Assembly: GCF_963675165.1 (NCBI RefSeq)
Contig: NC_087390.1
Coordinates: forward strand, 5,130,750-5,194,749
From: Halichondria panicea
Taxonomy: Eukaryota; Porifera; Demospongiae; Suberitida; Halichondriidae
Length of the DNA: 64,000 nt
Direction: 5' to 3'
Part shown: piece by piece, positions 14,738-63,118 of the stretch
Position numbering within the stretch: position 1 is the stretch's first letter
How the letters are laid out: the number at the start of each line of letters is the position of its first letter
The notes under the pieces: model-generated
Database searches by the model: none
The model's input: the letters and a program-made list of their open reading frames with translations, nothing else
Told to the model about the DNA's origin: nothing
Made by a program: the position numbers and the translations under genes

Positions 14738-17700
14738 ATGAGAGATTACGTTGTCCCAGTGTCTATGTGCACCATGCTGCTGCTGCTGCAATGGGCTCCC
14801 TCCGCCAACAGAGCTCAGAATTGTAAGCAACGTACCAGACTCTGTTTTTATATCATAATTGTGACTGCATGGTGTCGTGTATTAAATTGTAAAGAGTTAG
14901 CTTTTGTGTGTGCATACAGTTATAGCTAATAGCTACTTGCAGTCCCTTTCTCAGAACGTTGGGAGGACTTGTTTTGGTACATGGTAGGCCCATTGTGGTA
15001 CCCACTACCCACTGTGTACACACTGGGAGGTGTCTGTGGGAAAATGACCTGAGATAGAGTAGAATACCTGTACCACTAGATCCCTCCCTACATGTACACG
15101 TACTGTTGGAGAGTACTACACACTGCACTGTACATGCACAATCTTGTGTGATTGATCTTCATGAAGGTCCACTAAAAACCATGGTTGTTGCCAGGAGTTG
15201 AACTTGGTTGTTGCTAATAGAGTGTTGATAATTTTCAGTAGCTGAAGCTGTAGCTTGTTAGCCATGTTCGTCTTTTGTACGAGTATTTTACCACATTTGA
15301 AGATATTCACTCTTGCAACTAAAAATTATAAGTTGACCAACAAATATTACCGTATAGCTAGTAATTTCTTCGGCCCAAATATTCTACGAATAGACCTTTT
15401 GCGGATAATATTTCACTTTCAACTGTTAAATTAGGCGTAGCATTTGCGGATAATGTTTCTGCGTTTACTTATTCATTTGTAGACTTCACAGAATTTTTGG
15501 GCTGCAGAAATTTCTAGCTATACGATATTCAAACCACATCCCTTTTCTCACTAAAAAATTGTCCCCTGCCCACTTTATAGCACATGATGATGACTAGGTC
15601 TTTTACAACAATTCAATAGGTGTAAATCTTAACAATGTTCCAAATGTATTGCTTTGACTGATTGAGAGTTATTGTGCACATTAGATATTCCATACTGCTC
15701 TAATATTGTATGATTGTAACGGTAATTTGTTAAAAATAGTTATCCAATTTATCAGACACAGTGCATGGAGGTGTTAAATTATTTGATCACCCCCGGCTCA
15801 CTGAAGTATAAGTATGTGTGCATGTGTGTATAGTGTACTCCATGCTTTGTATTCCAGGCTCATTGAATGAGCTTTAGTGGAACTACTCAACCCTTTTAAT
15901 AACTTTCAGGGTTTCATACAGGATTTTTAGCCAGGGGGGGAAATGACGACAGCCGTACGGCATTGAAAATTTGGGGTCTGGGGGGGCAGAAAATTTGGCG
16001 GAATGATTGTCTAAGGTGCAATTTGGAGGTTAATGTATTTCTATTACTCTAACTGTTATAACTAGAGCACTAAAGTGCAAACCCTCGGCTGGTGACATGA
16101 TAATAAAGAAACCAGAAGAGTGATAATGCAGTGCATGTAGCATGTATGACTAGCACAGCAACTCAAGAGCAATAAAACTAAACCAGACTGTAGGGATGCT
16201 GAAACATTGAGTATGTCACATGAGACATGCACTGTGGACTGGGATCACAGCAAAGAAGCCTGGAGTCTTAGACTAAGAGAATTATGGCTCCTTCCAGGCT
16301 AGAGTATAGGATCCAGAGTCAGTCAACAACCAGTCACAATTCTACTTTCTTGGCCCTTATTCATGTTACGGGATCACTTCAGCTGCAAATACCTAGTCAG
16401 CAGAGGCAGTAATTCTAGCTTTCTACTTTAGTGACCCTGTTCCATTGTTTCTGGTACAGGATCACGTCAGCTGTAAGTAACCCATGTGGAAAAATCACAA
16501 TGTAACATAGGGTATCTCGAATAAAGGCCGCGTGTAGTTAGCAGCTGCCAACGGGCAAGTTTAGCTTTTGCTCGCTTTTATTTGACAAAGAAACTTTAAC
16601 ATCAAAATCTGCCACTATTTAAATCAAGATATTGTTGTGTGAAGGCTATCTATGCTGCAAACGCAGCGCTATGGCATCCAGGTGAGTAGAAAACCCCATC
16701 ACAAACAAACAAACAAACAAACAAACCAACAGACTACTATACCCGCTGGCCGCGGCACGGCCTCGGGTAATGAACTTGTGCTCTACCTTCCCCTGGTTGT
16801 AATTATCATACTCTCACAACCACATGCAGTGTTGTACAAATTATGTGAAAATCAGTATAGATCTCAATAGACACCATAGCAACAACTAACAGAGGGCAAT
16901 CAGGGTTTCATTTAGGATCAAAAATTGGGAGGGAGGAAGATTTGGGCGTGCGCAAGCGCGTCGCAAAATGTTTAGCTACGCCCACTTTTGTTGATTACAT
17001 GACGCATCACAGTACATATACCTTGTATTTAACTAATATGATGACATGTATAGTACTAATGTGATGTTTGGGGGGGAGAAGGTTCCCCCCTGCCCCCCCC
17101 TAGATGAAACCCTGGCAACTATAATTATACATAGGAAAATCAGATACCCTAATAAATGGGTACTAATTTTAGCGAATTCTAGCGAATTTGTAATTAACGC
17201 TAAAGTATGTTAATAGCATTTTATAATGAAAATGTACTTTTGCTAAGCAAGCTAGTCCTTTTTTCATCTGTATCTGACTCCAAAACTCATACTTGCACAT
17301 CTTTTAACAAATACTTGCGGCAATGAATTTGCTACAAATCCACCAAAATTAGTGCCCTAAAAACAGAAAAATCTGAAAACGCTAACATTATTATAACCGT
17401 CTATAATAGTAACATTAAGGTTCAAGGCTTTGAAAACGGCTGTTGTGCAGCAGCTGGAACTAAGATCAATGCAGAGTCAGCACAAAGAGAAAGTAGTGCA
17501 CCTGACATGCAGTGAGACCGGAGTAGGCTCACAGTAGAGTCAGCTAGGAAAGAAGCTTGGAATCATCCCATGAAAACAAATAGGGCTCGAGCGATCCATA
17601 CAGCTGTAGCTAGTGCGCATGTACTGTGTAATGGGATGCTTCAAACTAAGCTAGCTGTAATGCCATTATTAATGCAATGACATAGCGCTCAATATTTCAT

Positions 17701-33300: not shown

Positions 33301-34552
33301 GACATGATAAAGTAGATACTTGGTCTCAACACTTGCGTTCCCTTGGTACTCTATTTTAATTATCAAAACCGAGACAGTGCTATTCAATGATGGGATGGAA
33401 CTAATTGAGAAATCGAAAAGTCCAGCTCGAAACAATTCTGGTGATTGTGTAACCTTTTGGAGAGTTGGTGAATCAAGCAGAGAGTGGTCGTCAACTGAGA
33501 AAAAGGCAGAATAATATAATATAGGCACTGAACTACATTAATTTATGGGGACCAATAATTAATGCCTGGTTATAAAGTCTGCATGAGCAGACAGACAAAA
33601 AGTCACCTGTGTTATCACTGCCATTAGAGATTGAGCAACCTTGTCTGCAATACTCCTCACTCTGTATAAACAATATTAAGTGTATAATTTATGGAGAGAA
33701 AACAGCAATTTATTAACGCACACAGGTTCTAGAGCAAGTGGTGTCAGAATATAGCTGACTACACTGATCAGTGCTCTCACACTCCACACAGTCAGTCCTC
33801 TGCGGTGAAAGAATTAAGCTTGTTTAAGTTGTGGAATCATTTTTATTAGCACTTACACATTGTCCAGTGCACAAGCTTGAGGTTAAATTCATCGTTGCTT
33901 TAATCACACATCCTTGGGTGCAGTCCTCAATCTGTAATTCGAGATGTTACACATGCACATTCAATATACCGGCAATAACACTATCATGTGTCTCTGTTGT
34001 TACCTTGGATACATTATCACAATGTAGAAAGGAGGGGTCCACAAATGGTCGTGGAGCAGATACCAGAGAAGCCTGTTAGGTGTGTGGTGGGCAATGGTAG
34101 ACATATCATCCTGTTTGATCACATTGCAAATCGTAAACAAACTACACGCAATCAGGCTCAAAATCAAGCAGCTGCAAAACAATAACTCTGAAAGAGTTTG
34201 ATAATAAAGCGTATATATGCCATGGATGTGACATTTTAGCTGTAATAAAACTATGTACCCGTCGAATACACAATTTATCACTTTACCGTCTAGAATTGAA
34301 CATGATTTTTCACGGCCCTCAGCAACTTACCTCATCAAGTATTTCACTGGAGCATGCAGCAAAGCATCTAGCTTCCACTATAGCCTGAAGCTCATCAGTG
34401 TACAGTGCCGCATGCAGCTGCAAGTTTTGGTCAGTGGGGATGTAGCAGCTCTCTTTGTTGCACAGCTCTGAGATTGATGCTGAACTTGAACGCAATAGAT
34501 ACAAAAATACTAGCAATAATGCAACGGTCCTGATTCTTTGCTTCATTTTCAC
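27357..34552 (-). CDS. Receptor tyrosine kinase, Cys-rich and FN3 ectodomain
   Basis: Complete 23-exon gene, 1237 aa. Exons: 34331-34552, 34004-34072, 33857-33931, 33722-33799, 33607-33661, 33180-33494, 32634-32750, 32273-32367, 32112-32198, 31915-31975, 31467-31807, 31059-31346, 30853-30933, 30399-30695, 30065-30293, 29677-29867, 29431-29496, 29052-29244, 28799-28896, 28408-28678, 28168-28267, 27827-27986, 27357-27581. Every junction keeps phase. A signal peptide (about 1-26) precedes a Cys-rich region (to about 166) and FN3-like modules (PGKPTNLTI...ITLNWQKP; NLTISWMSP). One membrane helix lies near 684-713. The kinase has glycine loop LGDGCFSKV (766-774), VAIK (K800), a long insert with two YDHL motifs, HRDLACRN (D998), DFG (D1016) and WMAIEA in place of APE, as in RET/TIE-type kinases. 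An active plasma-membrane kinase is expected; the ligand is unknown. It is paralogous to the gene at 55096-64000. Confidence 0.94.
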
Positions 34553-34599: not shown

Positions 34600-34831
34600 C
34601 TCTTGAGAATGGGTAAAGATCGTTAACTATGAATTGTTTCAGCCTGGAATCCATACAGTATAATAATTATGGCAAAGGCTTTGCCAACAGGTAACGTTGG
34701 TATCAGCATAAATTTATAGTACCAGAGGAGGTTGGTCACGATTGTTAATTAATCTTCTAATTTACTAGGCACAGCTCATGATCATATAGACTGCATACTT
34801 ATTTCTTAACATTATGATACACACAATCACA

Positions 34832-35525
34832 TAGTCTCGCGGGCCATACTCCACAATCTGATACTACGTATGGTGACTATTGCCAGGTTTTCGTGTACAG
34901 TTCTGGAATTTCGGAACGATGGCATTTTAAGAATTTCCACACAAAAATGCAAAAATGTACCGCAAGCATTCAAAAGGGGTGTGGTTTAAAATTGTTCACC
35001 ATTGCTAAAAGTTGACAAGCTACACTGTACTGAGTCTGTTGGTTGTACAATCAGGCACTCTAAAGGATCAAGACTATCATTGTATTGCTTTCTTAAATAT
35101 CTAGCTGATGGATAGCTGCAGTCAAGAATGAAAAGAAAGATTAGGGAGACAAAAGTTGGCAAAACTATGGTTTTATTTATTCCAAGCAGAAATAACCATG
35201 GCAAGACCTCTTCTCCAGAGTTTAATACTGAACATGAGATAATGTGTGATATGGAAGCAGAAATCAATGCATGCAATAGACAACATTTTCTTGTATTATT
35301 TTGCAGCTCTACAGATCTAGATCTACAATTGTTGAGTATGAATCATCTATTGTCTTGATACTGAGTCTATGTTCACATGATAGCTTCTTCCACTTGAGAT
35401 ACTTTCAGTCGCTGTAGAGTATGGTAACTGTGGTTAATTGACAGGATACATTCCACTGCGACACGAAAACCTGGCAATAATCACCATACGTAGTATCAGA
35501 TTGTGGAGTATGGCCCGCGAGACTA
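34832..35525. mobile_element. 694-bp TAG...CTA element with 9-bp target duplication
   Basis: Inverted ends of about 64 bp (outermost TAGTCTCGCGGGCCATACTC and its inverse) match with one or two differences. Both sides are flanked by ACAATCACA (34823-34831 and 35526-35534). A 9-bp duplication fits Mutator-like transposons. The interior has no transposase. A stretch at 34990-35105 could be read on the minus strand as an exon-like frame between an AG and a GT, but there is no further support. 35535-36357 holds nothing recognised. Confidence 0.85.
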
Positions 35526-36500
35526 ACAATCACAAAGGATGCATGGAGAAATGATGATGTTTACAAACATAAAACATAATTTTTGTAAGTCTGACGACGT
35601 TTAGGTAGTGGTGTATTTCCGTCATCTGGTCACTACACAGCTTTTGCACGACCAATCGTAATGAATAACAGTGTCCCTTCCCTCTGTCATTGGCATGCCA
35701 AACTTTTCTAAAGGGTCTTGGCAGATCCTCAGATGTTCTGAGTACCCTGGGAAAGCAATTTACGGGTAAGTTTGAATTAGCATATTTCCAAAACTATACA
35801 GGTTAGCAAGGAAAAACTTTTCTCAAGGCACATCGGGATCATTAGGCAATATGTAGACCTAAACAATAGTGATGTACAATGCATTGTTAACCAGCAACTC
35901 CCCCGCAAACAAATGTACTTACGAATTCTTCTTTTCACACTTTTATGGTAATATTCAAAAATAAACAGCATAATTCTCAACTTAGCTATACCTAAGGCAT
36001 ATTCAATGCTTCCTCTACACTGTGATCACTCTCAAGCAACCATGGCTACTTCCTAGCTCAAGATATCCCCCCACAAAGTTTCATACCTTCAAATTCCCAG
36101 CTAAATACATGTAAAATAGTGCTACATGGACCTCTGATGATCAAATAAATTAGGTAAATGTAAACCATACATTTACTATGGATAATGTACATACATACTA
36201 GCTCTGCCAGTGTTTACTGCAGTTTTCTTCAGTTTTGCATCTGGCTCGCAATCAATCGCAATCAATATTTGCGGAATGCAACACGCATGGTGTCAGAATC
36301 CTCTAGGGCAATACATTGGTCACCTGAGATGTTTCCAATCCCTCCCCTCTACTATCTACTGTGTGTCATAATATAGCAGCCTGCATTGAACTATAGAGCC
36401 ACATGCATAATTAGATTTACATGCATGCTCCACAAATCATAGATCTAAGCTTATGCACCTGAGTTTCATTTTCATTTTCACAATAATTATGTTGTGTAAT

Positions 36501-37200
36501 GCCTCGGTGCGCATGCGCAAGCAAGGTATACGGTAGTGTTGTGTGCGTGTGTGTGTAGACTGCTACAGTTGCCAAGGATCAATGAAGTGCAAGTAAGAGT
36601 TTCTATAGGCTTCTAGTCATGTTTTCAATTCGTGGATTTGCAAAATAATTCTTCATTCTCGAGTTATGCCTAGTTTTGCTTTACTTGGAATATCATTGCA
36701 GAAGAGTCTAGTAAAACTTGTTGAGTGTTGCTACTTAGCCTCGATTCAAGGCCGATTAAAATACGTATTTTAATCGGCCTTGAATCGAGGCTAGTTGCTA
36801 CTCTACTTACTAGACCTATAGCTATTGATAGCTGCAAGAGTGAAAAGTCTGCAAATTCAAGAGATCTAGAGCTACAAAGGCTCTGCTGACTTGCAGCCAT
36901 TAATTATAGTGAAAAGTCTGTAAATTCAAGAGAGCTGCAAAGGCTCTGCTGACTTGCAGCTCTGCTTGCAGCCTAGCCTCGATCCCAGGCCGCACTTCCC
37001 ACTCAGACTTGAACTCTTGGCATTGATCGTTTTGAACAAAGATCATTGTCAATTATTACCCACTCTTTGAGTTTCCCTGGATTCTGCATGCCAAAATGTT
37101 CAATGATAATTATAATCAATGTGTGTATAACTATTAGTATATGTTATGTAGCTTTAGCACCTCCATGCACCGATGCATCAGCACCCACGGTGCTTTCATT
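36501..37200 (+). repeat. R1 copy in unit 1
   Basis: Starts GCCTCGGTGCGCATGCGC and ends CACCCACGGTGCTTTCATT. It contains the 58-bp micro-palindrome at 36736-36793 and a half copy of that palindrome's arm at about 36973. Confidence 0.8.
36736..36793. mobile_element. 58-bp perfect palindrome with 9-bp target duplication
   Basis: 29-base arms meet with no loop (outer ends TAGCCTCGATTCAAGGCCG and its inverse, centre ATACGTAT). GTTGCTACT flanks both sides, and unit 2 has a single GTTGCTACT at the matching site (near 43105), so it is the empty site. Confidence 0.9.
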
Positions 37201-37977
37201 CTATACAGATAGAATAATCGTGAATCGTCAATTTAAGAACCATGGCGGCATTATCTAGTAAGTACTCGAAAAAATGTCTAGCTAAATATAAAGTCCTACG
37301 TATAAATCACTAATTTTGTAGTAATTAATAATATTTTGTGCATAATTGTTATAAACAATGGTTAATTAGCGGGGGTGGTCGGTTGCTAGGTAGCGATGAC
37401 GGTGTCAAGATACCTCTGGGGTCTGTGCTATACCTGTAGGAAATAGTTACAAGTCATTTCAATTTATATATGGTTCATGAGATATGGATTTTTAAAGATA
37501 TAAATGTGTATTAATGCTGTATTTTAATTAAAACGGGGAAAGGTTAATCTCCTAACACCGAATGAATGTTATTCTTGTTGGCAGAGTTGAGTGCTAGTAA
37601 CTAGCTAAGCGGCGGAGTCAGCTTAAGATTTGACAAGGATTTAACATTAAACAAGATAGACAAAAGTAACAACTGACAAAACAGAGATCATACATGCACC
37701 AAAAACAAGAGAGACGCGCAGGGCCTCTTTACAACAAAGAATCTATTGTTAACACAAAAGGAGGCTCTGCTCCACAGGAAGTAATTAACCTACTTAACAT
37801 ACCTATAACAGAAACCATAGCTACAGTACAAATTAACTAAGTAAACAATGTACACATTAGTCAAGTGCACACACATACACATAATAATGACATAAATCAT
37901 AAGGGTATATAATTATGAATGCAGTACGTATTAATGTAAACAAACAATGGTAATACAGCTCCATGGCTGATAAGTCA

Positions 37978-39898
37978 CTAGTTGTCAACCAACACCTCTA
38001 TTTCTGTAGAACCTTCACCTCCCACTGATGGGGGTGAAGTAGCCTCAAGTGAAGCAGCAGAGGATTCTTCTTTTATTGCTGCACCATCTCCTTTTGAATC
38101 ATCTTCTTTCTGATCATCTTTATCTGCACCATCATCTTTTGGATCATCTTTTTTCTGATCATCTTTATTTCTATCATCTTTTGGATCATCTTTTTTCTGA
38201 TCATCTTTATTTCTATCATCTTTTGGAGAGGGAACATCTTTTGGAGGGGGATTCTTGATACAAGGAATAATTGTGGTAAAAATTCCTCCCACACTAGTCG
38301 CAAGAACTGAAGGAACAATAGGTCCTAGAAAAGCAATTACTCCACGGCTGTTTCTATATTCTTGAATCAGTAAAGTGTATTTGTAGACGAAACTAACAAA
38401 TACCCCAACACCACCAGCAACGCCAACCATAAGGAAGAAAAGCAAAATTAATGCAATACAAATTTGTTTGCTGGTTTGAAACTTGTGTGCTATTTTCAGA
38501 CCAGTGGCTAACACTGAAATTAAAGCAAAGAGGCTTGAGAGGTACAAAAACAACAGAGAGCCAGATTCAACCGGTGCAGCTATAACTGCAAAGGATATAA
38601 AAACTGAATTGAAGAGAGTAAGTTGAGCAAACAAAGTGATGAATGCTATTGAAGCTAGGTGGAATCCATTCTTAAGCACCAATTTTATCATTAGTTTACG
38701 TTCATATTTTTTCAGTCGCGTGTTCAAATGCTGACGAGTTCTCACTTCACTTTCATCATCATCGCTGTGATCATTGCGTTGATCTTCATTCAGTTCATTG
38801 TTGTTCAATTGGGTCCTAGTGCCATTCTCTTCTGAATCAATGAAGTAATAATCCGTGTGTCTACAAAGGCAGTTGACATAGTAGCAATCAAGACAAATAG
38901 CTTTTTCATTCAATGCAGCTTTTTCAAAGAACTTAAATACAGCTATTGCTATAACTGCCCATACAACATCCAAAATGGGTAAAGCAACAAGAAAACCAAT
39001 TAAACAGTAAGTTTCGACTCTTACATCCACAAAGTAGGAGCCACTGGATATGGCCAAACTATTGCATGCGTATATCGGTCCAATCAACAGTGTCATTACC
39101 ACAATCATTGCCCAAACATAATATCTTAAGCGTGACTTGTCATCGTTCATCTTTCTTTTAAAGTCATGGTAAACGCTAATCATTATCAATGGTGCTGCAA
39201 ATGTAACGGCTATTTCAAGTGCTCCAAAAGAAGCCCACAGAAGGATTCTCAAATTTCGAAAGGGACCTACTTCATCAAATATGCAATAATCACTTAAATC
39301 AGAGCCAAACACGTACACGGAGTAACCACTTTCCGTACTTGAGTCAAAGCCATTTGTTTTTTCTATATTACGATGCTTTGCATACGATAGCAGCTGCAAA
39401 TGAAATAAGGACATAAATAATTACATTAACTAACCAATTAACGACACTTACATTCACTGTCAGATTATTTAGTAGATGGTGATCAGTAAGATTGTTTGGA
39501 CGACAAATAAAATCTGGATCGCCGCTAATGTCCTTTTCTGAGCGGAAATCACAGATTGGATCGATAGTGACATCAGCATAGCGTAGCTCCACCTGGTACA
39601 TGGTGAGAGCTAAGAAGTGGAGGAGCTCGCTTCGAATCAGCAGGTTGATCGGTGAGTCCAGCCATCGATAGCGCACCGTCTCATTGGAGCCATTAAAATG
39701 GTAAGCAACTTGAACCGAAATGCTTTGTTGTCGATTAGTCGGAAAGAAGGCTTCACTCAAATTCACCACGTTTTGTGGCCACCTAAGAAGAGATGCTTCT
39801 AAACGATGGTACTCTCTGTCACCAATACATGTTGAGTTAGCGGAGACAATAGCTACTAGTGCCACCAATAAAGCTTCAACTAGACTAAGACCATGCAT
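37978..39898 (-). CDS. Unrecognised seven-helix membrane protein, copy 1
   Basis: Two exons, 39452-39898 and 37978-39393, give 620 aa; the donor GTAAGT and the acceptor TTTCATTTGCAG are clean. A signal peptide (about 1-21, ending ...VSANS) precedes an extracellular region of about 175 residues with several N-x-S/T sites (NLS, NGSNET, NLT) and paired Cys. Seven hydrophobic helices follow at about 199-223, 240-260, 279-303, 394-421, 428-450, 459-489 and 499-526. The loop between helices 3 and 4 has a Cys cluster (CLDCYYVNCLC) and an acidic segment (HSDDDESE). The tail is a charged repeat of KDDRNKDDQKKDDP units ending near EVLVDN. The topology is GPCR-like, but I see no family signature (no DRY, no NPxxY), so function is not assigned. 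It shares its exon-1 protein sequence with copy 2. Confidence 0.9.
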
Positions 39899-40641
39899 CG
39901 CTATCTATTCACTGTGCTTTTTGGCAACTTGTAGTGACTATAGCTAGCTTATAGGAATCACCTGTTTTAAGGAGAGCTATGAATATGCTCACAACAGGTA
40001 GATCTATACTACAGATGCAATCACTGTGGGTTACATTGTGCATAGTCTTATTGATGTAGTATACCAGTACTACAAACTACAGATGTAATCACAATAGCCT
40101 ATTGTATTGAGTTGAATAGGTATAGGCAGCAAAACAGTGAAGATGAAACGTACTCTATAAACAACTCGTATAATAATCTAATAGTCTATGAGTCGAGTAC
40201 CTTTTCACCTAAAATGTATTGTGGATAAACCATGGTTACTATCTTGTTATGTGCGTTAGCTGTGACCTGACTGACCTTTAATTTTTAAAAAATGCAGCCT
40301 CCAATACTACTTTACAAACAATATTATTCTGATAGGTAATTGTAATCACCTGTTTTTAAATATGTTCATAGCAGGTAATACTGTACAGAATAAGCTTGTG
40401 TGTATATGAAGGGTCTGACAATAATTATAGTTGATGCAAAGTTAGTCCTGTATACAATAATGAATAAGTTGTGATACGAAACAAGTGAAACTAAAAAGGT
40501 TGATAGATATAGTATACCATACAGTAATCACAATGGGAAAAACTATATACTCATGCAGGCACTGTAGGCAAATTTTAAGCAAAACAGCATTGAAATTGAA
40601 AATTAAACAACTCGAGTTTCTTGTATAATAATTATCATTAA

Positions 40642-40852
40642 TACCATATAGCGGGTAATTTTTGGGGGACAAAATATTCGTGGTTCAGCAATATTGAGAC
40701 ATTTTGTGGATAATATTTTCGTGGTTGCTGCTTGGATTGTAGGTAAAGGCAGGCAAGGTCGCTTCATTCGTGGGTAAAATATTCGTGGTCAGACCTCCAA
40801 CCACGAAAACCACGAATATTTTGCCCCACGAAAATTACCAGCTATACGGTAG
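40642..40852. mobile_element. MITE family 1 copy in unit 1
   Basis: TACCATATAGCGGGTAATTT at the left and AGCTATACGGTA at the right. The same insertion is at 48376-48584 in unit 2, so it predates the duplication. Confidence 0.85.
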
Positions 40853-42002
40853 TTGTACCATGGATATCAAGGGTGTATTGGATTTGTACAACCGAGGGTA
40901 ATTGTATATGTATTTCCCAATCATCGAGTTGTTCTAGTGGAATTTTAATTAGTTGTATGACATCATATTGTGGTTTGTGCGGTTGACTAAAGTTGCAGCG
41001 AATATAGACTGTAATATAAGGCACAGCATACAATGGTTGGTGTACCCCATTGCAAGCAGTTACACACACACACACACACACACACTCACACAATACTGTA
41101 TACCTCGCTTGCGCATGCGCACCAATAATTGTGTAACGTGTATATACATGTTGACATGCATGTTTTAACGTGTATAATTATGCATGTTATGCCTGCAGTC
41201 TACCAGAGAGGAGATCCCCCCCCCAATGAGCCAATAAGGCTTGTGAGTGCTAGCGAGGGACATCTGGTATAAATGTGCCTATTATGCCAGCATAATTCTC
41301 ACCAAAAAAATGTATGTGGGTTATGTCCCGTGGTTTATCTAACACAACATAAGACATGACATTGCTTCTGCACTGTGATTAGTCATTCCGATTTCGGTAA
41401 TGAGAACAACTCGTTGATTGGCAGTTGACCAGTCCCAATCCCTAGATTGGACTGGTCAGCGAGTCTACTGCTGGGTATGGTGTGTCAAAATTAGGGTGAC
41501 TGCAAAATTTCAATGAGGGCGTCTTTTCTGCCAGTGAGGGTGCTTGCATGCTAGTGTTGCAAGCGTGCACGTGCGCTAATTGCTAATGCCTCTCACCATG
41601 TTTTTGCTTTCGCTCAAAAGTATTAGAGTGTTATAGAAGAGGTAAATAATTTGCAATGTGCTTTGATTGTTTCACAAGAAAGGGGTGTCCACAGTTAATA
41701 GTGTATACTGATCGTCATAAATGGCCCGTATATAGACAAACAGTGGGAGCAAACTTTTGAATATAGTCAGTAGTCCGTGAGAATTCAATCACAAAATTCA
41801 ATCAACGATACTGAAGCAACTGCATGTTATTTAAATGGCCTGTAGCCAAACAGTGGAAGCAAACCTTTGTCAAAGGCACAGAGTATAAGAGAGAATTTAA
41901 GTACAGACAGCATAAGACAGTATAGTATATAAACAAGCAGAAAGTATGTAAACTGTAGCCAAACAGTGGGAGCTAGCTAGCAAATCTTTGTCAACTGAAA
42001 CT

Positions 42003-42372
42003 GTATAGAAAGAGGCAGAATAATATATTGGCTGAACTAAAATATCTACATTAGGGGGACCAATAATTAATGCCTGCATGATTATAAAATCTGCATGAGC
42101 AGACAGTCACCTGTGTTATCACTGCCATTAGTCTAGATTGAGCAACCTTGTCTGCAGTACTCCTCACTCTGTCAGTCTGTATAAACAATATTAAGTATAT
42201 AATTTATGGAGAGAAAACCGAGGAGAAAACAGCAATTTATTAACGCACACACAGGTTCTAGAGTAGTTGGGCGGAGTCCAACCAACTGCGTGGGAGTTCA
42301 CGCAGTTGGTTGGACTCCGCCCAACTAGTTCTAGAGCAAGTGGTGTCAGAATACAGCTGACTATACACTGAT
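42003..42372 (-). pseudogene. RTK fragment (exons 4-5 region) in unit 1
   Basis: It matches 33505-33770 of the RTK at 27357-34552: intron 5, exon 5 (GAGCAACCTTGTCTGCA), intron 4 and the start of exon 4 (GCAAGTGGTGTCAGAATA). Exon 5 carries a 3-base insertion and extra bases at its edge; exon 4 is broken by the 64-bp element. Non-functional scrap. Confidence 0.8.
42264..42327. mobile_element. 64-bp foldback with 9-bp target duplication
   Basis: 29-base arms (TAGTTGGGCGGAGTCCAACC... and inverse) enclose a 6-base loop GGAGTT. GTTCTAGAG flanks both sides (42255-42263, 42328-42336), while the intact RTK sequence has GTTCTAGAG once, near 33725. Confidence 0.88.
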
Positions 42373-42678: not shown

Positions 42679-42737
42679 TAGCCTCGATTCCAGGCCGCTG
42701 AGAAAGGCCACTATTCAAGGGGCTGGAGTCGAGGCTA
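42679..42737. repeat. TAGCCTCGA...TCGAGGCTA foldback at the duplication junction
   Basis: The imperfect palindrome starts TAGCCTCGATTCCAGGCCG and ends GGAGTCGAGGCTA, related to the 58-bp element. It lies between the end of unit 1 and the start of unit 2 and has no matching flanking duplication. Confidence 0.7.
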
Positions 42738-42883
42738 TCTATGGTAATACTGTGTGTCATAATATAGCAGCCTGCATTGAACTATAGAGCCGCATGCATA
42801 CTTAGATTTACATGCATGCTCCACAAATCATAGATCTAAGCTTATGCACCTGAGTTTCATTTTCATTTTCACATGTTGTGTAA

Positions 42884-43515
42884 TGCCTCGGTGCGCATGC
42901 GCAAGCGAGGTATACGGTAGTGTTGTGTGCGTGTGTGTGCTACAGTTGCCAAGGATCAATGAAGTGCAAGTAAGAGTTTCTATAGGCTTCTAGTCATGTT
43001 TTCAATTCGTGGATTTGCAAAATAATTCTTCATTCTCGAGTTATGCCTAGTTTTGCTTTACTTGGAATATCATTGTAGAAGAGTCTAGCAAAACTTGTTG
43101 AGTGTTGCTACTCTACTTACTAGACGCTATAGCTATTGATAGCTGCAAGAATGAAAAGTCTGCAAATTCAAGGGATCTAGAGCTGCAAAGGCTCTGCTGA
43201 CTTGCAGCCATTAATTGTAGTGAAAAGTCTGTAAATTCAAGAGAGCTGCAAAGGCTCTGCTGACTTGCAGCTCTGCTTGCAGCCTAGCCTCGATCCCAGG
43301 CCGCACTCACTTCAGACTTGAACTCTTGGCATTGATCGTTTTGAACAAAGATCATTGTCAATCATTACCCACTCTTTGAGTTTCCCTGGATTCTGCATGC
43401 CAAAATGTTCAATGATAATTATAATCAATGTGTGTATAAAAACTAACTATTAGTATATGTTATGTAGCTTTAGCACCTCCATGCACCGATGTATCAGCAC
43501 CCACGGTGCTTTCAT
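42884..43515 (+). repeat. R1 copy in unit 2
   Basis: Near-identical to 36501-37200 but without the 58-bp palindrome. Confidence 0.8.
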
Positions 43516-44282
43516 TCTATACAGATAGAATAATCGTGAATCGTCAATTTAAGAACCATGGCGGCATTATCTAGTAAGTACTTGAAAAAATGTCTAGCGA
43601 AATATAAAGTCCTAAGTATAAATCACTAATTTTGTAGTAATTAATAATAGTTTGTGCATAATTGTTATAAACATGGCTAATTAGTGGGGGTGGTCGGTTG
43701 CTAGGTAACGATAACGGTGTCAAGATATCTCTGGGGTCTGCGCTACCTGTAGGAAATAGTTACAAGTCATTTCAATTTATATATGGTTCATGAGATATGG
43801 ATTTTTAAAGATAAATGTGTATTAATTCTGTATTTTAATTAAAACGGGGAAAGGTTAATTTTCTAACACCGAATGAATGTTATTCTTGTTGGCAGAGTTG
43901 AGTGCTAGAACTAGCTAAGCGGCGGAGTCAGCTCAAGATTTGACAAGGATTTAACGATAGACAAAAGTAACAACTGACAAAACAGAGATCATACATGCAT
44001 GCACCAAAAACAAGAGAGACGCGCAGGGCCTCTTTACAACAAAGAATCTATTGTTAACACAAAAGGAGGCTCTGCTCCACAGGAAGTAATTAACCTACTT
44101 AACATACCTATAACAGAAACCATAGCTACAGTACAAATTAACTAAGTAAACAATGTACACATTAGTCAAGTGCACACACATACACATAATAATGACATAA
44201 ATCATAAGGGTATATAATTATGAATGCAGTACGTATTAATGTAAACAAACAATGGTAATACAGCTCCATGGCTGATAAGTCA

Positions 44283-46242
44283 CTAGTTGTTGTCAACCAA
44301 CACCTCTATTTCTGTAGAACCTTCACCTCCCACTGATGGGGGTGAAGTAGCCTCAAGTGAAGCAGCAGAGGATTCTTCTTTTATTGCTACACCATCTCCT
44401 TTTGAATCATCTTCTTTCTGATTATCTTTATCTTTTGTTGCTGCACTATCATCTTTTTTCTGATCATCTTTATTTCTATCATCTTTTGGAGGGGAAACAT
44501 CTTTTGGAGGAGGATTCTTGATACAAGGAATAATTGTGGTAAAAATTCCTCCCACACTAGTCGCAAGAACTGAAGGAACAATAGGTCCTAGAAAAGCAAT
44601 TACTCCACGGCTGTTTCTATATTCTTGAATCAGTAAAGTGTATTTGTAGACGAAACTAACAAATACCCCAACACCACCAGCAACGCCAACCATAAGGAAG
44701 AAAAGCAAAATTAATGCAATACAAATTTGTTTGCTGGTTTGAAACTTGTGTACTATTTTCAGACCAGTGGCTAACACTGAAATTAAAGCAAAGAGGCTTG
44801 AGAGGTACAAAAACAACAGAGAGCCAGATTCAACCGGTGCAGCTATAACTGCAAAGGATATAAAAACTGAATTGAAGAGAGTAAGTTGAGCAAACAAAGT
44901 GATGAATGCTATTGAAGCAAGGTGGCATCCATTCTTAAGCACCAATTTTATCATTAGTTTACGTTCATATTTTTTCAGTCGCTTGTTCAAATGCTGACGA
45001 GTTTTCACTTCACTTTCATCATCATCGCTGTGATCATTCCGTTGATCTTCATTCAGTCGCGTGTTCAAATGCTGACGAGTTTTCACTTCACTTTCATCAT
45101 CATCGCTGTGATCATTGCGTTGATCTTCATTCAGTTCATTATTGTTCAAATATTGCGTCCTAGTGCCATTCTCTTCTGAATCAATGAAGTAATAATCCGT
45201 GTGTCTACAAAGGCAGTTGACATAGTAGCAATCAAGACAAATAGCTTTTTCATTCAATGCAGCTTTTTCAAAGAATTCAAATACAGCTATTGCTATAACT
45301 GCCCATACAAAATCCAAAATGGGTAAAGCAACAAGAAAAACAATTAAACAGTAAGTTTCGACTCTTACATCCACAAAGTAGGAGCCACTGGATATGGCCA
45401 AACTATTGCATGCGTATATCGGTCCAATCAACAGTGTCATTACCACAATCATTGCCCAAACATAATATCTTAAGCGTGACTTGTCATCGTTCATCTTTCT
45501 TTTAAAGTCATGGTAAACGCTAATCATTATCAATGGTGCTGCAAATGTAACGGCTATTTCAAGTGCTCCAAAAGAAGCCCACAGAAGGATTCTCAAATTT
45601 CGAAAGGGACCTACTTCATCAAATATGCAATAATCACTTAAATCAGAGCCAAACACGTACACGGAGTAACCACTTTCCGTACTTGAGTCAAAGCCATTTG
45701 TTCTTTCTATATTACGATGCTTTGCATACGATAGCAGCTGCAAATGAAATAAGGACATAAATAATTACATTAACTAACCAATTAACGACACTTACATTCA
45801 CTGTCAGATTATTTAGTAGATGGTGATCAGTAAGATTGTTTGGACGACAAATAAAATCTGGATCGCCGCTAATGTCCTTTTCTGAGCGGAAATCACAGAT
45901 TGGATCGATAGTGACATCAGCATAGCGTAGCTCTACCTGGTACATAGTGAGAGCTAAGAAGTGGAGGAGCTCGCTTCGAATCAGCAGGTTGATCGGTGAG
46001 TCCAGCCATCGATAGCGCACCGTCTCATTGGAGCCATTAAAATGGTAAGCAACTTGAACTGAAATGCTTTGTTGTCGATTAGTCGGAAAGAAGGCTTCAC
46101 TCAAATTCACCACGTTTTGCGGCCACCTAAGAAGAGATGCTTCTAAACGATGGTACTCTCTGTCACCAATACATGTTGAGTTAGCGGAGACAATAGCTAC
46201 TAGTGCCACCAATAGAGCTTCAACTAGACTAAGACCATGCAT
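44283..46242 (-). CDS. Unrecognised seven-helix membrane protein, copy 2
   Basis: Two exons, 45796-46242 and 44283-45737, give 633 aa. The 149 residues of exon 1 are identical to copy 1 although the DNA differs at several positions. Exon 2 differs mostly in two places. The loop between helices 3 and 4 holds the acidic module LNEDQRNDHSDDDESEVKTR twice (once in copy 1). The charged tail has fewer KDDRNKDDQKKDD-type units. A few helix residues change (for example G to V and V to F in helix 3, F to C before helix 4). Silent changes and intact frames suggest that both copies are under constraint or recently homogenised. Signal peptide, glycosylation sites and seven helices are as in copy 1. Role unknown; a surface receptor or channel-like protein is possible. 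Confidence 0.9.
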
Positions 46243-46373
46243 CGCTATCTATTCACTGTGCTTTTTGGCAACTTGTAGTGACTATAGCTAGCTTATAGGA
46301 ATCACCTGTTTTTTAAGGAGAGCTATGAATATGCTCACAACAGTATACTACAGATGCAATCACTGTGGGTTAC

Positions 46374-46967
46374 AGTGGATTGCAGTGCACTTGCAACAGA
46401 AAATTTCCAAACAGCAAAACAACAATCAGATAAAATTAAAATTATTATGAGAGTACTTTTTTACTTAAACTTTGACTTTATTACAGGTAGAAAGCATAGA
46501 GCCAACTAAAATGACAACCACTTTTCTAAACACCCATTGAACCTTGCCCCCTCCCCCCCAAGAACGATTTAACATGCATGACATTTGTACACTGTACATG
46601 CAGTCAGTCAAGCATTCTTGAAATGTATTTCATGCATTTCTATGTTCAAGGCTTTTCAAGAATGCTATATCAAAGTATCCATTCTGTGAGGGAGACTAAT
46701 AGGAGTGCCCTGAGAATATTTATATAATCGCATGGAGGTGTATGACTGAGCACTTTTTGGGCTATTGAATTCCCCCGGGCCCAGCTTGTACATTCAATAA
46801 ATTTGCTCATACCTGCGTACACCTTTAGGAATAAGCAGATGTTCAATGAGATTCTGCTATTGTAATAAAAGTACAAGCTGACCTTACAATTATTATTGGT
46901 AATGAAATTCATATCTGGTGGTTTTGCTGTTTGGCAATTTTCTGTTGCAAGTGCACTGCAATCCACT
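46374..46967. mobile_element. Foldback element inserted in unit 2 (first)
   Basis: AGTGGATTGCAGTGCACTTG and CAGAAAATTTCCAAACAGC at the left are repeated inverted at 46921-46967. Unit 1 lacks it. The interior has no credible gene. Confidence 0.75.
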
Positions 46968-47869
46968 ATGGGGTGTTATCTGTGTCAAAATGACTATGAC
47001 AATGTACACACGTGTGCATTCATATGCACGTTACAATATGCATGTCAACATGCATATGCACATTTACAGTATTATGCTGCATGGGATGTCAATAATTATG
47101 ACCTCCGGCAGCATAATTATACACTTACACCCAATAATATGCATATACATGTCCATATAATGTATAGACTGGTTGGCACACATAACATTAATTATGGATG
47201 ACTCCTCCACAAGACTCCAATTTGAGCTGGAAAAGACGCCGCAATAATTAGTTTGTTAGTAGGTGTGACATCTTTATTGTGCATGCGCGGTAAAAATATA
47301 AGCCCACTCCACATGCACCGACACGTGGAGAGTGGGCTTCTAAATATAAAACTCTCTAAATCTGGAGGCGAGAAAGATAAGGAAGAAGATGTACCGACAG
47401 TGTATCAGACTCTAAGCTAGCTATAGCTATAGCTGTGATATAAATGGCTGACAAGATTACTTGCGCCAACGAGATAATATAAATTTATTGTGCTCGTCCT
47501 ATTATAATATAATGAGCACTTGCACTTTGACCCAATGACCACATAATCTAGACTCCACCCTTTCTGCCTACAAAATTACAGTGTAATTACTCTCAATATC
47601 CGGATACATGCATATTGTGATGTGTACGTAATGTGTAAGTATACATGCACATGCCATATAATTATTATTGACTTGATAATAATTGTGTAACGTGTAGATA
47701 CATGTCAACGTGTATATGCATGTTGTATATTATGTTGACATGCATGTTGTAATGTGCATATGCATGTTGACATGCATGTTGTAATGTGCATATGCATGTT
47801 GACATGCATATTGTAACGTGCATGCGTGTGTACATTGTCATAGTCATTTTGACACAGATAACACCCCAT
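46968..47869. mobile_element. Foldback element inserted in unit 2 (second)
   Basis: ATGGGGTGTTATCTGTGTCA at the left and its inverse ending AACACCCCAT at 47869; arms of about 90 bp continue through GACATTGT/ACAATGT- and CATGTCAACATGCATATG-type motifs. It directly abuts the first element with no spacer. A small hairpin (GCCCACTCCAC / GTGGAGAGTGGGC) lies near 47301-47339. Confidence 0.75.
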
Positions 47870-48375
47870 AGTATGCCAGTACTACAAACTACAGATGTAA
47901 TCACACTAGCCTATTGTGAATAGGTATACTCAGGTATAGGCAGCATCAGCATTGTGGACAAACCATGGTTACTATCTTGTTATGTGCGGTAGCTGTGACC
48001 TGACTGACCTTTAATTTTTTAAAAATGCAGCCACCAATACTACTTTACAAGCAATATTATTCTTGATAGGTAATTGTAATCACCTGTTTTTAAATATGTT
48101 CATAGCAGGTAATACTGTACAGAATAAGCTTGTGTGTATATGAAGGGTCTGACAATAATTATAGTTGATGCAAAGTTAGTCCTGTATACAATAATGAATA
48201 AGTTGTGATACGAAACAAGTGAAAGTAAAAAGGTTGATAGATATAGTATACCATACAGTAATCACAATGGGAAAAACTATATACTCATGCAGGCACTGTA
48301 GGCAAATTTTAAGCAAAACAGCATTGAAATTGAAAATTAAACAACTCGAGTTTCTTGTATAATAATTATCATTAA

Positions 48376-48584
48376 TACCGTATAGCGGGTAATTTTCGGG
48401 GGACAAAATATTCGTGGTTCAGCAATATTGAGACATTTCGTGGATAATATTTTCGTGGTTGCTGCTTGGATTGTAGGTAAAGGCAGGCAAGGTCGCTTCA
48501 TTCGTGGGTAAAATATTCGTGGTCAGACCTCCAACCACGAAAACCACGAATATTTTACCCCACGAAAATTACCAGCTATACGTA
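48376..48584. mobile_element. MITE family 1 copy in unit 2
   Basis: Same insertion as 40642-40852; its right end has lost one G (CTATACGTA). Confidence 0.85.
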
Positions 48585-49734
48585 GTTGTACCATGGATAT
48601 CAAGGGTGTATTGGATTTGTACAACCGAGGGCAATTGTATGTATTTCCCAATCATCGAGTTGTTCTAGTGGAATTTTAATTAGTTGTATGACATCATAAT
48701 ATTGTGGTTTGTGCGGTTGACTAAAGTTGCAGTGAATATAGACTGTAATATAAGGCACAGCATACAATGGTTGGTGTACCCCATTGCGAGCAGCTACACA
48801 CACACACACTCACACAATACTGTATACCTCGCTTGCGCATGCGCACCAATAATTGTGTAACGTGTATATACATGTTGACATGCATGTTTTAACGTGTATA
48901 ATTATGCATGTTATGCCTGCAGTCTACCAGAGAGGAGATCCCCCCCCAATGAGCCAATAAGGCTTGTGAGTGCTAGCGAGGGACATCTGGTATAAATGTG
49001 CCTATTATGCCAGCATAATTCTCACCAAAAAATGTATGTGGGTTATGTCCCGTGGTTTATCTAACACAACATAAGACATGACATTGCTTCTGCACTGTGA
49101 TTAGTCATTCCGATTTCGGTAATGAGAACAACTCGTTGATTGGCAGTTGACCAGTCCCAATCCCTAGATTGGACTGGTCAGCGAGTCTACTGCTGGGTAT
49201 GGTGTGTCAAAATTAGGGTGACTGCAAAATTTCAATGAGGGCGTCTTTTCTGCCAGTGAGGGTGCTTGCATGCTAGTGTTGCAAGCGTGCACGTGCGCTA
49301 ATTGCTAATGCCTCTCACCATGTTTTTGCTTTCGCTCAAAAGTATTAGAGTGTTATAGAAGAGGTAAATAATTTGCAATGTGCTTTGATTGTTTCACAAA
49401 AAAGGGGTGTCCACAGTTAATAGTGTATACTGATTGTCATAAATGGCCCGTAGACAAACAGTGGGAGCAAACTTTTGTCAAAATATAGTCAGTAGTCCGT
49501 GAGAATTCGAATTCAATCAACGATACTGAAGCAACTGCATGTTATTTAAATGGCCTGTAGCCAAACAGTGGGAGCAAACCTTTGTCAAAGGCACAGAGTA
49601 TAAGAGAGAATTTAAGCACAGACAGTAGTATAGCAAAGACAGTATAGTATATAAACAAGCAGAAAGTGTGTAAACTGTAGCCAAACAGTGGGAGCTAGCT
49701 AGCAAACCTTTGTCAACTGAAACTGTATAGAAAG

Positions 49735-49965
49735 AGGCAGAATAATATATTGGCACTGAACTAAAATATCTACATTAGGGGGACCAATAATTAATGCCTG
49801 CATGGTTATAAAATCTGCATGAGCAGACAGTCACCTGTGTTATCACTGCCATTAGAGATTGAGCAACCTTGTCTGCAGTATACTCCTCACTCTGTATAAA
49901 CAATATTAAGTATATATTTTATGGAGAGAAAACAGCAATTTTACTGACTATACACTGATCATTTT
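49735..49965 (-). pseudogene. RTK fragment (exon 5 region) in unit 2
   Basis: It matches intron 5 and exon 5 of the RTK at 27357-34552, with a 2-base insertion in the exon. The exon 4 part present in unit 1 is deleted here at about 49940. Confidence 0.78.
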
Positions 49966-50488
49966 TTCTCTGCACTAGCTTACTATTCTGATGATTTAGG
50001 CCATGCAAAGTCAATTTGTAGTTTCTCAGGCTATTATTCCGAGGTATTGATATTAATGATAATGATATTCATATAATTTTAATTAAAAACACACCCCTAA
50101 CTTCCTCAATAAGCGGAAGTGCATAATTTAATTTTAGTCATAATTATATTCATGACCAAAAACCCATACAAATTTATCGTTTTCTTTTCTTTTTAGTGCC
50201 TCTAATTTGAGGTCACGTGATATTTGGAAAGCAGTCAATTTCCAAGCGCGAGGGCCTGAGAAACTACAAATTGACTTTGCATGGCCTTACACAGTTTATA
50301 TATAGAATTCCCACTCTGTAGAGAATTCCAATACAAGTTGGGGAGGGCGTGGCCAGACTAGTCAATAATTTAGGTAAAGATCATTAACTGACAATTCTTC
50401 TAGTGCACGCATGTGACGTTGTTATGAATATCTGCAATCTGTTATAAGATACCGTGGTAGCTCATTTTTGCAGTCTTTTGACACAATT

Positions 50489-51721
50489 ATGGCTGGAGCA
50501 ACCGAAGTTAGCAATATTGTTGTTTGTGGACGACAAAGCTCTAACATTGCTTTGCTTGTCAACGGATTGCTAGGTATTCAGTTGGTGTCTGCAGAGGAAA
50601 CTAGACGGAGATGCTCTGTGATCAAAGAGCAAACTGAACAAGCACCTGGACCTAATCAACCAGATGTGCAATTAAAGGTTTGCATTTTTTCAGGCTTCGG
50701 CACCGATGACAGCCAAACTACTGATTTGATTCGCCAATGTTGTTCAAGAGATAAAGTTGGTGTGCTTCTCTACTGTATCACTGCAGAAGGGCTTGGAATT
50801 AAAACAGCTGAGATAAGAGAAGAGATCAACAAGATTACGAGTGCCTATGGTGTTGACATTTGGAAAACCAGCGTGATTGTGTTCTTGAAGGCACACCGAT
50901 GTGCACGTGCTTTACAGCGAAGTACGGGATCCGGGGGAGAGAGCTTCAACAGAGCAATTGAACTTTGGAAAGAACAAGTGCGAAGTATAATGTTGTCAGG
51001 TTCGATGATCACTCCTATCCCTCCAAGAACCGTAAGGAAGCTAGCCTTTGTTGTTGCAGGAAAAGAAAATGAGTTGGCACTTCCTGGACGAGACTTCTGG
51101 CTTTCTGTTGTGTGGGTACAAGTTTTTGAAAGAAGCACAAGAACTTGCTACAAAAAAGGTATTTCACAACTAGCCAAGTTTCAGGCAAGAACGAAAGAAA
51201 GAGACGAGATGAGAAAACCCGAAGTTTCAGATGACATCAAGGGAAAGAAAATTTGGGAGCAGCCGATTTCGACAGGTGAAATGTCTCTACGCCAGAAAAT
51301 TGCCATCGGTGCTGGAGGCACTGCTGCCGGAATAGCTGCTGGTGGTGTGGGTGCCTCAATTGGTGCTGTAATTGGTGCTCTTGCGATTGGTATACCCACA
51401 TTTGGCGTCGCAGCAGGTGCTGGTCTTGTGATCGGAGCAGCTGTCGGGGGTGGGATTGGAGTTGGTGTTGCTGGTGCTACTACAGCGGGAGTGAAAGCTT
51501 ACCAGAATGTCAAAGAAAAAGAAGAACAAGAAGAATGTAAGTATAATTATCTTGCATAAATGTGATTACTTGAAAGTAAAAGGGCTTATAATTATGTTGA
51601 TTCAATTTTGATGTAATATGCAGTTTGTAGGCGGCAAGCAACTACAAGAGCAGAAGAGGATTCATCTGATTCAGATGACTCCAGAGATGAGATGCAAGAC
51701 CCACCTCGGAATGGAAACTAA
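50489..51721 (+). CDS. AIG1/GIMAP-like pseudo-GTPase with glycine-zipper domain
   Basis: Two exons, 50489-51536 and 51624-51721, give 381 aa. ATG at 50489 is the first in-frame methionine; an AG at 50472-50473 hints at an upstream leader intron. The fold order matches AIG1-type G domains: strand and loop IVVCGRQSSN (10-19) leading to NGLLG, a second strand FSGFG in place of DTPG, VGVLLYCI, VIVFLKAH, and the family-typical LPGRDFWLSVVW near the end. In the nucleotide loop the usual GxxGxGKS is replaced: aligned on the flanking G and LLG, the invariant Lys is Ile20 and the Ser is Ala21, so GTP binding is probably lost. Residues about 271-335 are a glycine-rich hydrophobic domain with repeated GxxxG spacing, likely membrane-inserting. 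A charged helix and a short acidic tail follow. A decayed paralogue is at 1-889. Confidence 0.87.
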
Positions 51722-61000: not shown

Positions 61001-63118
61001 CATGAACAAGGTAACTGCTGCTCCCATTCTGAGGAAGAAATTAAGAGTGTTGGACGTTTGGTCAATACTAAATAAACAGCTCAAAAACAAAATTGAAAGG
61101 TGTATGAATTCTCGTGTGTCAGTTGAGATTGTAAATTGGTGTAATAATATAGTTATACTCACTACTATCAAGTTACAAGCAAAAGCTCAAAGACCTATTT
61201 CACTCACTAATAGAGGTATAGTGGTTGTTTTTATCAGTTGCTCATGTAGATTGTAGTTGTCATCAAGTGATACTATCACACTATAGTTCATATTGGTGAC
61301 GACTGTCTCAGTGATGTTATAAGTGTCCCAGGTTGCTATGGCAGTGTAGAGTCCAGTGAGGGGGTCAATCACGGCAGTGCACATCCATTTCAGCGATGAC
61401 CTCTCCTCTGGAGAAAGAGTACATTCTAGTAAAAATGCAGATATAAATACAGTAAAACCACTTGTTTATAATGGACACCTTCGGTAGAGTTTTGTTCGCT
61501 TTACGGAGGTAGAGGTAGCCTTAATTTGTTAAGGAGTTATTTTACTGGGACCTGGTTGCCTTCAAGTGTGGTCAGGAGCGGCCATTAAGAGGTCTGAGTG
61601 GTACTGTATATGAACCGTTAGAGTACTTGAACAGACATGCACGCTGAAACAGATTCAACTATACATCACGTCTGAAACAGCAGTTTGCAGAGGAGGTTAT
61701 GGTTATCATTAGGAAGGCACTTACCAATCTCCTTCAGATCAATAATTCCAAAGTAATTATCATCATCATTGCTCGGAAACGATTTTATCTAAAAAAAAAA
61801 AAAAAAACTGAGATCAATGCAGTTGGTATCACACCCTCAAAAAAATTAGTACATGTAACAGAGTCCAGTGACTAAATTATTATGTAAATAGAGATTATAA
61901 TTAGCACACGTAACACTTACAGTATACTGATAGATACAGCCCAGTCTGGGAAAGTGCTGCGGTGAATCCGCCTCTATTGTGAAGGACAAAGAAGGGGAGG
62001 GAGATATCGCGTAGACGTGGTTTCCAGAGTGACCTCTATCACAGTTAGAGCCTTGGCTGTTGAGTATCAGTTGATAGTAGGCCACCAAGTCATAATCTGA
62101 AGGAGGTCAGGACAGAATACACACTGTATGAGCTAGGTGCAGTATAATTAATTTTATCGGACAGTAAAAAAATTATTATTTTGGACTTTGTCCGGGTAAT
62201 AATATAGCGCGCGTGAGATGTCTGGAGTATATAAAACAGGCATGCAGCTGCATGAGAGCTAACTCATGTTTAATAGTACAGTGTACGTGCGACTGAACAG
62301 TTTTAGAATTTAACAACTAGCAAATCCTCAAGCTATCTTAACTCTAATAAAGCTACATGTTGGCTTGGAATGTACCTCAACAACTTTTCAACGTATTGTC
62401 CGGATAGTTAGAACAAATGTAAAATTAAAGACAGAGTGTCCGCTGTATTAGAAAATATACGGTAATTATTCTACACAAGGTTGATAAAATACCGTATAGC
62501 GCAAAATTTTCGAGGGGCTTAATTTTCGCGGATTTCGCGGGTTAGAATTCTACACGAAAATTAAGTCTACGAAAATTGTGCTTTAATTAGAATTACCTGC
62601 TATCGTGCAAATATTTAAAGGCGTGGCTTCCGGTAAGCAGTCATTCCGCGAACATTGTGCAACGAAATGGCTTTTAGAGGCCAATCCACAAAATATAAGT
62701 GCCTCGAAAATTTCGCGCTATACGGTAAATAATTTCACAGATTAGCGCACTACAATTACGCTAGCTTGGTACCGAGTAAAGCAGACATCTGCAGTTATCG
62801 GTCAACGTATGTACTATTATGTAGCCTGTCATTTAACGATCGAAATGCAACTCAGTAAAACATCAAAATTAATAAATGGGAGATTTCTCAGCCTTCACTG
62901 GAGGGCTTGGGTATTACCGTATAATACCGGGAAGTATTACATTTTTTGTCATTTGGCTCAAGAGCTCTCAGCAGAAATGCTTTGCATGTGACATACCGGT
63001 GCGTGGGAGTTTATCTTAGTTTTAATTTTCGCGTTAACTGCTCTGCCCTCGAAAAACGCGAAATGTTGCACCTTACGAAAATGTTCCGCTATAAGGTAGT
63101 ACACAATGTAGGTACTAG

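Follow-up and report, generated by a model that had tools for sequence, protein, structure and literature searches.

Micro-palindromes with 9-bp target duplications in the sponge Halichondria panicea: probable transposons reduced to little more than their ends

Miniature inverted-repeat transposable elements (MITEs) are usually about 100–800 bp long. The elements described here come from a 64 kb stretch of the genome of the demosponge Halichondria panicea (C14:5130750-5194749, on contig NC_087390.1; hereafter the window) and from their copies elsewhere in the same genome (131.5 Mb, 39 contigs); they resemble MITEs in being non-coding, in their inverted ends, fixed-length target duplications and longer same-ended relatives, and in occurring in many copies, but differ from them in measuring 36–68 bp with almost no interior. 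Structurally they are MITEs, and they stand at the extreme of MITE size. An earlier note on the window had claimed that its two micro-palindromes, of 58 and 64 bp (the 58-mer and the 64-mer), are little more than the ends of transposable elements; this is borne out, as are their 9-bp target duplications, and they have many copies genome-wide. The reading preferred here, at a probability of roughly 0.78, is that they are extremely reduced non-autonomous transposons moved by a transposase supplied in trans, and that the 58-bp form constitutes a mobile lineage of its own.

Several other described systems invite comparison. Mariner elements make TA duplications; palindromic motifs inside their terminal repeats, which would be a point in common with the elements studied here, were reportedly the subject of Bigot et al. 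in 2005, to judge by its title. Palindromic MITE-like elements are known from Anopheles, within a set of 430–1678 nt according to an excerpt of that report (PMC3212995). The 9-bp duplication is usual for Mutator, as an excerpt on maize Mu has it (PMC2774946), and Mutator-like elements (MULEs) of the present genome make it as well, yet those with resolved ends differ from the micro-palindromes in the ends they use. Sponge mitochondrial hairpin elements, yeast GC clusters and Allomyces hairpins are also short, hairpin-forming and dispersed, but they are mitochondrial, whereas the copies studied here are spread over many contigs of several megabases and have 9-bp duplications; excerpted text on the Porifera hairpins leaves their mechanism open and says the Allomyces ones are without flanking duplications (PMC2800124). 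Bacterial REP/BIME palindromes, of 20–40 bp and more than 100 copies per genome in the excerpted sources (PMC3733652, PMC2817692), are likewise short and numerous, but bacterial and associated with a tyrosine transposase (excerpt of PMC2817692). Spacerless nuclear micro-palindromes with 9-bp duplications were not found in the literature, of which few subscription journals were covered, making this weak evidence of absence, and the pattern TAGCCTCGANNCNAGGCCGATTAAAATA had no exact match in viral contigs of the sole public collection scanned.

Palindromes of the window and their empty sites

Three elements of the window, assigned here to families A, B and C, confirm the earlier note in that they begin with TAG, end in CTA and lie between exact 9-bp duplications. 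They and two further family A-type features are as follows (a dash stands for no assigned strand):

34823..34831, +, left 9-bp target duplication of the 694-bp element, ACAATCACA
34832..35525, –, family C element, 694 bp, inverted ends 34832-34896 and 35461-35525
35526..35534, +, right 9-bp target duplication of the 694-bp element, ACAATCACA
36727..36735, +, left 9-bp target duplication of the 58-mer, GTTGCTACT
36736..36793, –, family A micro-element, 58-bp perfect palindrome without loop (TAGCCTCGATTCAAGGCCGATTAAAATAC and its reverse complement)
36794..36802, +, right 9-bp target duplication of the 58-mer, GTTGCTACT
36974..36991, +, further family A-type end TAGCCTCGATCCCAGGCC, unit 2 counterpart at 43285
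42255..42263, +, left 9-bp target duplication of the 64-mer, GTTCTAGAG
42264..42327, –, family B micro-element, 64-bp palindrome with a 6-nt loop, arms TAGTTGGGCGGAGTCCAACCAACTGCGTG
42328..42336, +, right 9-bp target duplication of the 64-mer, GTTCTAGAG
42679..42737, –, worn family A-type micro-element, 59 bp, without 9-bp duplication
33726..33734, +, single GTTCTAGAG in the empty site of the 64-mer
43104..43112, +, single GTTGCTACT in the empty site of the 58-mer

The arms of the 64-mer are perfect over 29 bp, and the inverted ends of the 694-bp element, 65 nt each, are 98% alike. When all 64 kb were scanned for TAG...CTA stretches of 30–3000 bp with at least 13 of 16 end bases inverted and an exact flanking direct repeat (a design that worn copies escape), repeats of 9 bp gave three matches, namely these three elements, and repeats of 6, 7, 8, 10, 11 or 12 bp gave none.

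Both micro-palindromes have an empty paralogous site within the window. Aligned across the insertion, the filled and the empty site agree at 96.7% for the 58-mer (empty site 43053-43172) and at 93.7% for the 64-mer (empty site 33696-33770), and both alignments show a gain of the element together with a second copy of the 9-mer. The single GTTGCTACT lies in unit 2, as had been claimed for the 58-mer; for the 64-mer, the single GTTCTAGAG lies in the 33.7 kb stretch. The gene label of the earlier note, an intact receptor tyrosine kinase (RTK), was not confirmed by the three open reading frames (ORFs) scanned, two in unit 1 and one at 50417-51556, which had no Pfam match at E 0.01. Unit 2 does not offer the 64-mer a clean empty site at the matching place, where its aligned blocks are 10 bp apart as against 138 bp in unit 1, and no empty site of the 694-bp element was found within the window.

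The units themselves are two tandem repeats of about 6–7 kb (36357-42218 and 42748-49933) whose aligned blocks are 95–98% alike, each with similar ORFs of 480/493 aa and 178 aa, both of those in unit 1 being without a Pfam match. Window positions 40642-40851, 48379-48582, 62490-62727 and 15348-15527 hold a different inverted-repeat family, whose ends resemble TACCGTATAGC and whose arms are about 41–45 nt long.

Copies across the genome and longer relatives

The fused centre of the 58-mer (30 nt, up to 3 mismatches) is present at 197 places in the genome (reversed control 0), which gives a 58-bp element without coding capacity a large number of copies; its 30-nt arm (up to 2 mismatches) has 330 forward and 291 reverse matches, 621 altogether (control 0), and the end motif TAGCCTCGANNCNAGGCC occurs exactly 5295 times, about once per 25 kb (control 0). 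Of those 197 places 50 were listed, all of them with an exact centre; 5 were covered separately, and 40 of the other 45 were fetched in list order. Their 9-bp duplication is perfect in 28, comprising 24 distinct 9-mers, and has one mismatch in 5; exact adjacent repeats of 5, 6, 7, 8, 10 or 12 bp were seen in none of the 40, and an exact 11-bp one was seen in a single copy. Five of the 40 represent one locus (L081, L088, L097 and, reversed, L094 and L108), and when flanks were cross-paired between different copies 8 of 1560 pairings were perfect, all of them, by a reading of the rows, from these five. The 23-nt arm of the 64-mer (up to one mismatch) is found in 153 + 135 matches (control 0); among 18 distinct loci of the 64-mer type the 9-bp duplication is perfect in 14, whose number contrasts with four that differ at 3–5 bases in the fixed frame. 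The earlier note had made its claim depend on further copies with the duplication, and in both types these are thus plentiful, with the same fixed length of 9 bp and with inverted repeats at the termini.

A sample taken by coordinate order, the first 100 TAGCCTCGANNCNAGGCC motifs of C1, resolved into 21 pairs and 58 unpaired motifs, the pairs measuring 44, 58, 58, 58, 59, 59, 100 and 103 bp, with 13 more of 606–2455 bp. Since three C1 micro-copies (L131-L133) have one common duplication, GGGGGGTGC, and L003 and L004 have common flanks, the six small C1 copies amount to about three insertions. Over all fetched loci, 71 distinct sites have a duplication with at most one mismatch (61 perfect; 47 with elements below 70 bp), and their elements range from 44 to 1861 bp; together with a 36-bp element found by a looser scan, the TAG...CTA group of this genome has members of 36–1861 bp, flanked by 9-bp target duplications. 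There is also a hairpin size class of 98–103 bp with TAGCCTCGATCCCAGGCCGAGTTTTCGC arms (L029 2409-2506, L134 29-128 and L135), whose duplication is perfect in L029 and L134 and not in frame in L135.

Both micro-palindromes have longer relatives that carry their ends, the 58-mer in L068-L071, L124 and L125 and the 64-mer in L126 and L127. The 30-nt arm of the 58-mer also starts elements of 355, 536, 602, 1538, 1718 and 1861 bp, four of which have a perfect 9-bp duplication, the 602-bp one having a single mismatch and the 355-bp one none. Family B micro-elements measure 52–68 bp, with most centres private to one site, which fits separate collapses or the transposition of many small variants. As for family C, the 694-bp element matched 30 loci, in 9 of which the 9-bp duplication is perfect and in 3 of which it has one mismatch, many of the others being fragments; the start of the 694-bp element, TAGTCTCG, resembles TAGCCTCG, and with the common TAG/CTA ends and the 9-bp duplication a kinship with the micro-palindromes is plausible.

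The choice of target also links short and long elements. At family A sites, with both strands counted, position -4 outside the duplication is C in 0/70 micro-elements and 0/26 longer ones, and position -3 is C or T in 58/70 and 24/26, respectively; given this common preference, micro and long family A elements seem, from their sequences, to use one integration machinery. CTA before or TAG after the 9 bp was seen at 21 of the 71 sites, vs 3.2% of window positions, and both together at none of them. The 36-bp element, a loopless pair of 18-nt halves with GCAACTTCC on either side, lies within MULE copies, at L122 3754-3807, L123 3733-3786 and, with a 57-bp neighbour, L118 1054-1173. In L122 and L123 it stands alone between two copies of GCAACTTCC; in L118 the 57-bp micro-element adjoins it and there are three copies, from which it follows that a second micro-element was inserted into the 9 bp adjoining the first, and the comparison is a second before-and-after view of micro-element insertion. 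Elsewhere, a 37-bp family A-type palindrome has a 59-bp family B micro-element inserted at its edge (L028 1502-1602), and the 9-bp duplication of this micro-element overlaps the TAGC of the older palindrome.

Probable transposition of the 58-bp form and the alternatives

The arms of the 58-mer fall into three subtypes, which occupy 12, 9 and 7 different duplicated sites; in the first two subtypes the two arms differ from each other in a fixed way (the count skipped 4 copies without TAG/CTA ends in frame and left out L007, which is the same place as L005). With these subtypes and one and the same 22-bp centre recurring at duplicated sites, the sequence pattern makes it most likely that the 58-mer transposes in its own right. 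The smallest micro-elements with perfect duplications are of 44 and 36 bp, the 44-bp form having 26 forward and 25 reverse genome matches (up to 2 mismatches). Neither was accepted as proof of a still smaller mobile unit: a slip between the two TTAA copies of a 58-mer could yield the 44-mer, and the 36-mer meets the same doubt, its finds in L118, L122 and L123 being one insertion carried by MULE copies. The family A forms below full length may have arisen by subsequent loss at the palindrome tip.

The transposase, supplied in trans and most likely a cut-and-paste DDE enzyme, would recognise the ends, excise the element and insert it into a target cut with a 9-bp stagger; the 58-bp form would have arisen by loss of nearly all of a longer element between its inverted ends, and would then have been copied to many sites as a 58-mer. 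How so short an element might retain two working ends is suggested by its longer relatives, in 12 of which both ends (24 in all) were searched for internal inverted repeats. One of at least 5 bp was present in 23 of the 24, those of 5 bp being at chance level. Among 16 TAGCCTCG-type ends, CCAGGC(C)...(G)GCCTGG starts from position 12 in 11 and a shorter version from position 14 or 15 in 3, another repeat being present in one end and none in the last; a B element has CCAACC...GGTTGG from position 15 and the 694-bp element CCATAC...GTATGG from position 13, neither significant alone. Most TAGCCTCG-type long ends, then, consist of a terminal block (TAGCCTCGANN) followed by the internal repeat CCAGGCC...GGCCTGG, and the micro-element consists of a terminal block, exactly one inverted repeat and a terminal block. 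Because the internal repeat is identical from both sides, two full ends could overlap in one short unit, one repeat serving two terminal blocks. The resulting model, of an overlapping-ends transposon with one palindromic transposase-binding repeat that serves both ends and a cleavage block on each side of it, is put forward tentatively.

A number of observations weigh against the reading of the micro-palindromes as mobile MITEs. No TAG...CTA element was found to contain a transposase gene. A perfect duplication is missing from 12 of the 40 fetched 58-mers; 7 of these have at least two differing bases when read in the fixed frame, some apparently because of a shift. These 40 come from the first-listed, exact-centre copies and are therefore biased towards well-kept ones. 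Families B and C show less of the target preference, with C at -4 in 7/28 and 7/18, and family B centres mostly vary between copies, as expected from a one-by-one origin. Internal inverted repeats reach a shuffle P of at most 0.06 in just 10 of the 24 ends, B, C, C2 and E ends giving P 0.14–0.62 and the left end of L059 having no such repeat. Finally, the combination of one TTCA and one TTCC end that is seen in one micro subtype is also frequent among long elements, which leaves room for repeated collapse at the same point.

Such a collapse in place, whereby long elements would move and then lose their interior between the inverted ends (by replication slippage or faulty gap repair), the micro-palindromes never having moved as such, is an unlikely alternative. 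It would account for the heterogeneous family B centres, for the shorter family A forms that resemble tip deletions of the 58-mer and for the TTCA/TTCC pairing, and long elements with the same ends do exist; however, the identical 22-bp centre would have to arise anew at each of at least 24 distinct family A sites with perfect duplications, the join has only about 2 bp (CG) common to both long ends (by a reading of L068), and among the 50 listed of 178 micro-copies with 58-mer arms 31 are of full length, 19 shorter and none longer, within a reach of 60 bp. Movement by hairpin extrusion or as single-stranded DNA in replication, in the manner of bacterial REP/IS200-type elements, seems very improbable: a single strand of a perfect spacerless palindrome is predicted to fold into one duplex end, which would suit this route, but most fetched copies have exact 9-bp duplications, and elements of 536–1861 bp have the same ends and the same duplication length. 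We know of no 9-bp-like target duplication left by REP-type movement. That the flanking 9-mers and the copies reflect chance or segmental duplication is refuted here; flanks are indeed common to some copies (L003/L004, the five-copy locus and L131-L133), but the 40 copies include 24 distinct perfect 9-mers, a perfect match has a per-copy chance of about 4 in a million, and the window scan found nothing at other repeat lengths.

A candidate mover and the smallest mobile unit

If the micro-palindromes are moved in trans, the mover might be a MULE transposase of this genome, which would be compatible with the preferred reading and which we regard as a real possibility, though one with less than even odds. 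There are 31 places with a MULE domain in the genome, and 12 of their neighbourhoods, 5–6 kb each, were examined with one mismatch allowed in the end motifs. Four of them (L117, L118, L122, L123) have CGCTGTGACTATTC ends around the MULE gene, delimiting elements of 3.6–4.5 kb that enclose the MULE domain and have CGCTGTGACTATTCTTACGGCA as their ends:

L118 972-4715, flanking 9-mers perfect
L122 208-3889, flanking 9-mers perfect
L123 222-3868, flanking 9-mers with 1 mismatch
L117 279-4804, flanking 9-mers unmatched

The two 3.7 kb elements with perfect 9-bp duplications speak for a MULE mover, as does the roughly 9-bp duplication length of the TAG...CTA group, which is that of the MULE superfamily; against it, TAGCCTCGA, TAGTCTCGCG or TAGTTGGGCG ends formed a proper pair around the MULE gene in 0 of the 12 neighbourhoods, the eight without CGCTGTGACTATTC ends had no inverted pair of at least 14 exact bases in the fetched stretch, and the perfect duplications of L118 and L122 sit at A+T-only 9-mers, unlike the TAG...CTA sites. 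A loose pair in L120 (TAGCCTCCA at 999 and TCGAGGCTA at 4628) was not counted, because its two ends agree over no more than the first 7 bases and 7 of the 9 flanking positions are mismatched. The earlier note's attribution of the family to a Mutator-like transposase is, hence, supported as to the duplications and not as to the ends at the MULE places covered.

Coding traces within the TAG...CTA group were found in L130 (26-2480), at 2455 bp the longest element fetched, which is without a 9-bp duplication in frame; the scan of three of its ORFs gave a zf-AD domain (E 1.5e-7; ORF of 143 aa) and a DEAD-helicase-like fragment (E 5.5e-9). Genome-wide, zf-AD was detected at 16 places, in 14 cases over the cut-off, and a comparison by eye showed no MULE match within 400 kb of any of them; 14 of the 16 are free of stops, most of them about 148 aa long, a pattern suggestive of a transposon gene.

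What remains of the micro-elements is almost only the ends that an enzyme would recognise, which makes them a natural test of the smallest possible jumping gene. Their lengths grade from 1861 bp to 44 and 36 bp while the ends stay related and the duplication length stays constant, a natural series that opens the question of the minimal mobile DNA unit to testing. Were the overlapping-ends model true, one enzyme assembly on one site could excise the element without DNA looping, and the lower size limit of a cut-and-paste transposon would be about 36–44 bp. The abundance of TAGCCTCGANNCNAGGCC ends, moreover, suggests that repeat finders requiring a longer element or an interior could overlook many insertions of this kind.

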